Assembly (NCBI GenBank): GCA_031270665.1
Contig: JAISXD010000050.1
Span: 1-64,000 of the forward strand
Direction of reading: 5' to 3'
DNA from: Tannerellaceae bacterium
GTDB lineage: Bacteria; Bacteroidota; Bacteroidia; Bacteroidales; Tannerellaceae
DNA: 64,000 bases
Under the pieces are notes generated by a model, which was not told where the DNA came from, did not search any database, and saw only the letters and a list, made by a program, of their open reading frames with translations. Within the stretch, counting starts at the first letter, position 1, and each line of letters starts with the position of its first letter. Below, piece after piece: positions 14,253-55,758 of the stretch. Position numbers and translations under genes: made by a program.

Positions 14253-14774
14253 ATGAGAAAGAAGCAGGCTTTCGTTATTTTATCTTTTATCGTAGCCTTA
14301 TTGGCTACTTCTTGCGGAACGGCTAAGCATGTCCCGGCTGAAGCGAATACGCCAAAAGAACTATCCCGCAAGTTGGGTTTGCCGGTTACCAATAGAGATA
14401 ATTTGCATTTATATACGGAAGTATCCAAATGGCTGGGAGTAAGACATAAATATGGAGGAAATACCCGGAGGGGCGTTGATTGTTCGGGCTTGGTGGTGCA
14501 AATTTATACGGAAATTTACAGAAAGAAATTAAAACGTTCTTCTGCCGACATGCTAAAGTATAACTGCAAAAAAGTAAGCAGGGGAAAATTACGGGAAGGC
14601 GATCTGGTATTTTTCAGGACAGGCAGCGGTAAGAAAAATATCCCGAATCATGTGGGGGTTTATCTTAAAAATCAACATTTTGTACATGCGAGCACCTCCC
14701 GGGGCGTTATTGTAAGCGATTTGAACGACCCTTATTATTTACGAAACTGGATAACCGGCGGAAGGGTAAAATAA
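14253..14774 (+). CDS. NlpC/P60 family lipoprotein (cell wall endopeptidase)
   Basis: Lipobox LLATSCG; GVDCSGLVVQIY Cys motif and PNHVGVYL His motif; start set to 14253. Confidence 0.88.
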   Translation: MRKKQAFVILSFIVALLATSCGTAKHVPAEANTPKELSRKLGLPVTNRDNLHLYTEVSKWLGVRHKYGGNTRRGVDCSGLVVQIYTEIYRKKLKRSSADMLKYNCKKVSRGKLREGDLVFFRTGSGKKNIPNHVGVYLKNQHFVHASTSRGVIVSDLNDPYYLRNWITGGRVK

Positions 14775-14871
14775 CTGTAATACATCCTCCTATGCGGTAT
14801 CTTCCTGAGGGAACGAATACCTGAAAAGTAAGGTTTTAAATGAAAGAATGAAAAATAAGGCAACCTTTTGT

Positions 14872-14959
14872 TTGCCGACAATTATCAGTAAAATTATCGA
14901 TAATTGTCGTTTATTCTGCCGACAATTGTCAACAGGCTTGCCGATAATTATCGGCAAGC
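14872..14959. repeat. Four-unit palindromic array, exact 22-bp pitch, cores GAYAATTRTC
   Basis: Cores at 14877-14886, 14899-14908, 14921-14930, 14943-14952; last unit is a 24-bp perfect palindrome at 14936-14959. Confidence 0.9.
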
Positions 14960-15042
14960 GATTTTATTCAATATCCATTTGCAACAGATTATGTAAGAAA
15001 AATACTTTTGATTAACAAGTATGTTATTTTCTTAATATTGCT

Positions 15043-15050
15043 TACCTTTG
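15043..15050 (+). promoter_or_regulatory. Putative -7 element TACCTTTG upstream of serS
   Basis: Matches TAnnTTTG; 26 bp before ATG. Confidence 0.45.
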
Positions 15051-15075: not shown

Positions 15076-16347
15076 ATGTTGACGATTAAAGTTATCATTG
15101 AAAATAAAGATGAGGTAATCCGTAAATTGGCTAAAAAGCATTTTGATGCGAAAGAAATAATTGACCGGATTATAGAATTAGATAGAACGCGCAGGGAGAC
15201 GCAACAGCAACTGGATGCCAACCTGGCTGAAGTAAATAGCCTGTCGAAAGCGATTGGCGGGTTGATGAAGGATGGTAAGAAAGCCGAAGCCGAAGCTGCC
15301 CGTTTGCATGTGGCAGAAATGAAAGAGGGCAATAAAATCCTTGATGAAACAAAAAATTCGGCGGAACAACAACTATATGAACTTCTGGTATTAATACCTA
15401 ATCTGCCGCACGATTCTGTTCCCGAAGGCAAAGGGGCGGAAGATAATGAAATCGTAAAACAAGGCGGAGTTGTTCCCGGACTTGAAGAAGACGCCCTGCC
15501 TCATTGGGACTTGGCGAAGAAATATGATTTGATAGACTTTGAGCTTGGCGTGAAAATAACAGGCGCCGGTTTTCCTGTATATAAAGGATATGGTTGTCGT
15601 TTGCAACGGGCATTAATTAATTTTTTCCTTGATAATGCGCGTGAAGCCGGTTATCTGGAAATCCAGCCTCCTTATATGGTGAATGCCGACTCCGGATATG
15701 GAACCGGGCAATTGCCCGACAAGGAAGGGCAGATGTATCACGCTACGCAGGATGATCTGTATCTTATCCCGACGGCAGAAGTTCCGGTAACCAATATTTA
15801 TCGTGATGTGATATTGAATGAAACCGATTTACCGGTTATGAATACAGCCTATTCCGCTTGTTTTCGCCGCGAAGCCGGTTCATACGGTAAAGACGTACGT
15901 GGGCTGAACCGTCTGCACCAGTTTGATAAAGTAGAGATTGTCCGTATAGATAAACCCGGACATTCTTATCAATCTTTACAGGAGATGGTTGATTATGTGC
16001 AGTCATTGGTAGACAAACTGGAATTACCCTGGCGTATCCTTCGTTTATGTGGCGGGGATATGAGTTTTACTTCTGCTTTGACATTCGATTTCGAAGTATA
16101 TTCCGCCGCTCAGAGACGGTGGCTGGAAATTAGCTCGGTATCTAATTTTGAAGCTTATCAGGCCAACCGGCTGAAATGTCGTTATCGCGATGATAACAAA
16201 AAGATACAGTTATGCCATACGTTAAACGGCAGCGCTTTGGCTTTGCCCCGTATCGTTGCGGCGCTTCTGGAAAACAATCAAACCCCGAACGGAATCCGAA
16301 TGCCTCAGGCGTTGATTCCGTATACCGGATTTAATGTAATAAAATAA
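15076..16347 (+). CDS. serS: Seryl-tRNA synthetase
   Basis: N-terminal coiled coil; class II motifs FRREAGSYGKDVRGLNRLHQFDKVE and LNGSALALPRIVAALLENNQ. Confidence 0.96.
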   Translation: MLTIKVIIENKDEVIRKLAKKHFDAKEIIDRIIELDRTRRETQQQLDANLAEVNSLSKAIGGLMKDGKKAEAEAARLHVAEMKEGNKILDETKNSAEQQLYELLVLIPNLPHDSVPEGKGAEDNEIVKQGGVVPGLEEDALPHWDLAKKYDLIDFELGVKITGAGFPVYKGYGCRLQRALINFFLDNAREAGYLEIQPPYMVNADSGYGTGQLPDKEGQMYHATQDDLYLIPTAEVPVTNIYRDVILNETDLPVMNTAYSACFRREAGSYGKDVRGLNRLHQFDKVEIVRIDKPGHSYQSLQEMVDYVQSLVDKLELPWRILRLCGGDMSFTSALTFDFEVYSAAQRRWLEISSVSNFEAYQANRLKCRYRDDNKKIQLCHTLNGSALALPRIVAALLENNQTPNGIRMPQALIPYTGFNVIK

Positions 16348-55638: not shown

Positions 55639-55758
55639 GATTGCGATGTCTTCACCAAACCATTGTGATGTCTTCAGTAAACCATTATAATGTTTTTACA
55701 AAAGCATCATAATGGTTTGGTAAAGACATTATAATGGTTTACTTAACACATTATAATG
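55639..55758. repeat. Six-unit array at exact 22-bp pitch, consensus core CATTATAATG
   Basis: Cores start at 55639, 55661, 55683, 55705, 55727, 55749; 55668-55707 and 55712-55751 form a 35/40 inverted repeat. Confidence 0.93.

Follow-up and report, generated by a model that had tools for sequence, protein, structure and literature searches.

The window, by which we mean the whole 64,000-nucleotide stretch of Tannerellaceae bacterium DNA that was analyzed, carries four 22-bp palindromic units in a row between serS and an upstream gene that an earlier note had assigned to an NlpC/P60 lipoprotein (Table 1). For the upstream gene, ATG 14253 is more likely to be the start than the listed TTG. Direct reading of the letters bears out the four GAYAATTRTC cores and the 22-bp pitch given in the earlier note, and an inverted-repeat comparison does the same for the 24-bp perfect palindrome at the last unit. 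The symmetry that had been proposed about 14914.5 also holds: taken as a whole, the array reads as an imperfect palindrome around its midpoint (76% over 38 bp), with the best axis at offset 0. Taken alone, cores 1 and 2 are imperfect palindromes, with C·A or T·G at positions 3/8. The array had been placed about 90 bp before a putative serS −7 box; the location stands, and the distance is 84 bp from the end of the array to the start of the box. The box fits TAnnTTTG, which we take to be the Bacteroidales −7 consensus.

Table 1. Features of the window discussed in the text (strand as reported; a point marks features given without strand)
Feature	Position	Strand	Basis or remark
Upstream gene (NlpC/P60 lipoprotein)	14253..14774	+	ORF listed from TTG 14229
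Left outer arm TTTGTTTGCC	14867..14876	.	sequence reading and inference
Array, four 22-bp palindromic units, GAYAATTRTC cores	14872..14959	.	read directly, pattern search
Core 1 GACAATTATC	14877..14886	.	exact GAYAATTRTC match
Core 2 GATAATTGTC	14899..14908	.	exact GAYAATTRTC match
Core 3 GACAATTGTC, perfect palindrome	14921..14930	.	exact GAYAATTRTC match
Core 4 GATAATTATC, center of 24-bp perfect palindrome 14936-14959	14943..14952	.	
TACCTTTG, putative −7 box	15043..15050	+	kept before serS in relatives without the array
serS	15076..16347	+	
Second array, core CATTATAATG, 5-6 units at 22 bp	55639..55758	.	

Exact matches to GAYAATTRTC in the 64-kb window are confined to the four array cores, and the pair pattern GAYAATTRTC-N12-GAYAATTRTC is found in the genome of origin at this locus only, with 0 matches for the backwards control pattern. 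When pitches of 14-59 were scanned in the window, 4-unit palindromic arrays were seen at 22 bp only. Beyond the cores, the left arm appears to match in part both the right arm GGCAAGCGATTT (14953-14964) when this is inverted and TTTGTTGCC/GGCAACAAAA, the arms that the element has in genome G043; this inverted arm is short and partial only, unlike the longer arms of other copies. The four-palindrome array before serS belongs to a dispersed element class, of which it is a copy in somewhat decayed form.

The earlier note had placed the array upstream of serS and suggested that orthologous upstream regions be compared. serS was found in 40 relatives and the upstream sequence was read for 29 of these. 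The array is present in 0/29, including G012 and G007, which have the same gene order, and a tie to serS is not supported, as the conserved serS promoter also stands in relatives that carry no array. The serS protein of G012 is 92% identical, in both G012 and G007 the upstream gene is retained and the intergenic region is short, and the promoter stretch TTATTTTCTTA...TTACCTTTG is retained in several relatives that lack the array. The array was therefore either gained here or lost in the others. The direction is uncertain because G012 retains a short similar stretch, GCGATTT; the short intergenic region of G007 favors a gain. Insertion before serS was probably incidental.

The suggestion that the 22-bp pitch merited a genome scan proved well founded. 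A period scan by self-similarity over ∼2 Mb of summed DNA, a method that by design favors regular arrays, returned 51 arrays at period 22, whereas the other periods (15 to 40) gave 0-14, the next highest being 21 (14) and 15 (8). In 400 kb of unselected DNA from G007, period 22 accounts for 20 arrays and other periods for 0-3, with 10 at the harmonic 44. The period-22 arrays listed for G007 fall into at least six families without mutual sequence similarity, and 100 kb of P. gordonii holds four, all of different sequence; the density in both is ∼4-5 arrays per 100 kb. The spacing of neighboring GAYAATTRTC cores is equally strict, as allowing any gap of 3-33 gives the same counts as a gap of 12 (168/168 pairs, eight genomes). 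Between this gap scan and a period scan over 12-60, nothing comparable was seen at another pitch. Palindromy exceeds that of all 40 position-permuted controls in 39/53 period-22 arrays. DNA from other families of the order (272 kb) yielded no array, and the 100-kb stretches scanned in each of G026, G039, and G021 likewise had none.

The two arrays of the window had been described as having unrelated cores. Their sequences are indeed unrelated, but both belong to one structural class. In the genome of origin the CATTATAATG type is the main family, with 11 pattern matches against 0 for the control. It also occurs there at loci L166, L169, L170, and L183. The same genome contains period-21 arrays built on the palindrome TTTCTGCGCAGAAA (L173 4919-5065, L176 124-395, and L177 9762-10030); these are crossed by stop-free frames and therefore may be coding repeats. 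In G010, 156 matches of CATNNNNATG × 3 are seen at 22-bp pitch, and 100 kb of G091 (L206-L210) holds some tandem arrays with periods of 20 and 30 beside those of period 22.

The element as a whole is an imperfect palindrome of ∼110 to 400 bp, at the center of which lies the head-to-tail row of 22-bp palindromic units, mostly four in number and six in nearly all complete G082 arrays. Since the unit is itself a 22-bp palindrome, each core and each spacer forms a dyad, 11 bp from the next. Spacer sequence varies by species (GGCAAGCTTGCC, GGCCGCTTGGCC, AAAAGGCCTTTT, and others), and across species palindromy is held by compensatory change about both dyads. Copies within one species agree position by position, both in the array and in the sequence beyond it, as with spacer 2 of G091, which is AACAGATCTGTT in 9/9. 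The inverted symmetry extends past the array ends, and inverted arms are found in the G007 families, G043, G013, and a 240-bp insert in G088. Both element length and arms differ much from family to family.

The pair pattern of the GAYAATTRTC family is present in 20/125 genomes of the bacterial family, with a maximum of 87 pairs per genome, and its backwards control in 0/125. A looser pattern, GAYNNNNRTC × 3, extends this to 44/125, with the backwards control also matching in a few genomes, probably because families with different cores are also present in those. Among 84,980 species genomes scanned, 84 loci were recovered, almost all of them in Parabacteroides, with the few remaining in Pedobacter, Prevotella, and one Bacteroidaceae MAG; order-wide, 13/393 genomes match, with a second concentration in family f60. 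Across Parabacteroides/Tannerellaceae, the copy number of the element class ranges from a few per genome to well above 30. The GAYAATTRTC type occurs in 0 of 2.9 million viral contigs, and a phage origin was rejected.

Signs of spread are clearest in G013, where one element arm has 37 matches, the best 25 at 79-99% identity. The element is ∼400 bp at full length, and arm identity is 88-99% in most full-length matches. Copies carry one unit (L288/L289), two units (L287), or four units (the others); those with one lack three units and those with two lack two, in exact 22-bp steps. Among the arm matches in G013, no autonomous transposon with common ends was recognized. Upstream arm homology is of varying length among the G013 copies (L282-L301), and in L297 the left half is doubled, almost symmetrically. 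Where 200-kb stretches of P. faecis and G088 are collinear, the majority of array sites are occupied in one species only; one of these is a ∼240-bp insert in G088 with ∼65-bp imperfect inverted arms. An orthologous array in the same two genomes has three units in one species and four in the other, and at two of its pairs the letters have changed in a compensatory way. The flanks of empty and filled sites, compared for target-site duplication, are strongly diverged.

Although 91% of the DNA is coding, 0/29 unselected arrays overlap a coding sequence. Of these arrays, 13 lie between divergent genes, 12 between tandem genes, and 4 between convergent genes, which is a mild divergent excess (13/29 vs 27% expected). 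Intergenic siting with this excess is a poor fit to a structure at mRNA 3′ ends, and a terminator or 3′ UTR element was rejected on gene context. No neighbor gene is shared to a telling degree around the arrays, apart from genes for HU-like DNA-binding proteins at seven loci (L044, L061, L068, L120, L165, L194, and L197; median distance 57 bp), which may be chance or a lead. The arrays were also considered as CRISPR arrays and rejected, as the spacers are themselves repeated and palindromic rather than unique.

The letters that vary among copies bear on how the units act. Where positions that face each other across the spacer vary, they are anti-complementary in G082 (15/70 vs 35 expected), G043 (11/47 vs 24), and G091 (5/29 vs 15). 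In the 23 arrays of the G010 sample the CAT/ATG ends are fixed and the core centers are non-palindromic, with self-complementary letters at 8/92 in core 2 and 6/92 in core 3; the CAT and ATG letters were set by the search pattern, and the centers alone are free evidence. These two observations point to two half-sites of a dimeric protein held at a fixed distance. The two halves of one core nevertheless covary in G043 (52/62 vs 31) and G093 (30/32 vs 18), which is not predicted by simple half-site recognition and counts against it. We consider the arrays to be, probably, a non-autonomous MITE-like mobile element in which a row of dyad sites, spaced by two helical turns, would bind a protein that we infer from the sites themselves. 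The row of units would be the platform for this dimeric DNA-binding protein, which would read two short half-sites (GAY..RTC, CAT..ATG, and others), with neighboring dimers packed next to each other at a distance of two helical turns. Spread of the element would be the work of this protein or of a transposase that uses it, and each sequence family probably has its own recognizing protein.

Several other explanations would account for part of these data. The arrays could be architectural sites maintained by the host, at which a nucleoid protein organizes the chromosome or buffers supercoiling between divergent promoters, with spread being secondary. A strict pitch without indels, the mild divergent excess, the HU-like genes adjoining seven arrays, and the persistence of other families in species that lack the GAYAATTRTC core are all consistent with this. 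However, array positions turn over between close species, family sequences differ inside one genome, and the recent expansion of one G013 family looks like mobility, so that we think this explanation unlikely. Somewhat more doubtful is a hairpin in RNA or single-stranded DNA, in which the stem of the whole palindrome would act in mRNA stability, termination, dsRNA processing, or folding for transposition. The G013 element folds as one long hairpin (∼−76 kcal/mol as RNA), compensatory changes occur across species and in the orthologous pair (AGTATACT vs GGCATGCC), and 22 bp is two turns of an A-form helix. Against it, at least one third of arrays lie between divergent genes, G·U is not commoner than A·C (orientation to transcription not being fixed), no Rfam match at the gathering score is seen in the window or in four array loci, and the spacer-facing positions are anti-complementary as described above. 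Complementarity between cores in G010 is not above that of shuffled arrays, and signals elsewhere are weak, so that the long-hairpin pairing of units 1:4 and 2:3 was rejected. The nested or local hairpin role raised in the earlier note thus finds no support.

That the array is an operator for a transcription factor of serS or a neighboring gene is very improbable. The array does lie upstream of a promoter, and operator-like rows were seen in Pedobacter, where three copies of GACAATTGTC at 22-bp pitch stand before two neighboring genes in three species (L096, L142, and L148) and look like a cooperative operator. Yet the position before serS is unconserved in relatives, and Parabacteroides arrays occur in all gene contexts, convergent included. 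Cooperative operators of the ArgR and TyrR kind have tandem palindromes about two helical turns apart at a few regulated promoters; the spacing is similar, but the arrays here are dispersed copies. We give next to no credence to a REP/RAYT repeat moved by a Y1 (IS200-type) tyrosine transposase. REP/REPIN elements are likewise short intergenic palindromes in high copy number, and in them too structure is kept while sequence diverges between families, but they lack a tandem, fixed 22-bp pitch. The arrays here have no GTAG-type tag, and Y1 transposases are excluded as the general agent by their absence from five array-bearing genomes (G045, G046, G047, which is one contig, G052, and G082).

With the mobile element carrying protein-binding sites as the preferred reading, the nearest relative is BrickBuilt, a MITE of Porphyromonas gingivalis (PMC4596501) and the sole one found for this class in a literature search of mostly open-access reach. 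BrickBuilt is known from a single species, where a 23-nt repeat with the consensus AGAYCATARTATCCTCTCRTRTG occurs in ∼19 copies, always intergenic, and its ends match IS5-family elements (PMC4596501). Like BrickBuilt (PMC4596501), the arrays are found in Bacteroidales, have a tandem minisatellite flanked by a leader and a tail, with inverted ends, lie between genes without coding capacity, vary in unit number, and are predicted to form long stem-loops. The BrickBuilt repeat is, however, nearly uniform and not palindromic as printed (PMC4596501), whereas the 22-bp unit here is palindromic, unrelated to it in sequence, and spread as many unrelated families over a bacterial family. The elements are short, non-coding, and present in many dispersed copies with terminal inverted repeats, although in the window copy only as a short partial arm. 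We thus place them as a variant of the MITE-with-minisatellite kind, a membership that is incomplete as to target duplication and parent transposon. The resemblance to PATE and IS605-type elements (PMC3119063) is looser; these are likewise short and non-autonomous with palindromic ends, but their palindromes lie near the ends and not in a tandem center.

This would be a large class of repeats in common gut bacteria, apparently not described before, which interrupts assemblies and marks both promoters and the DNA between genes. It is possible, and we advance it tentatively, that geometry rather than sequence is what is inherited, with rows of dyads at an exact 22-bp spacing read by diversifying cognate proteins that each spread or organize their own family inside one genome. 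The class may display the joint diversification of mobile repeats and the proteins that recognize them. One exact pitch over unrelated sequences offers a clean route to the protein that sets it.
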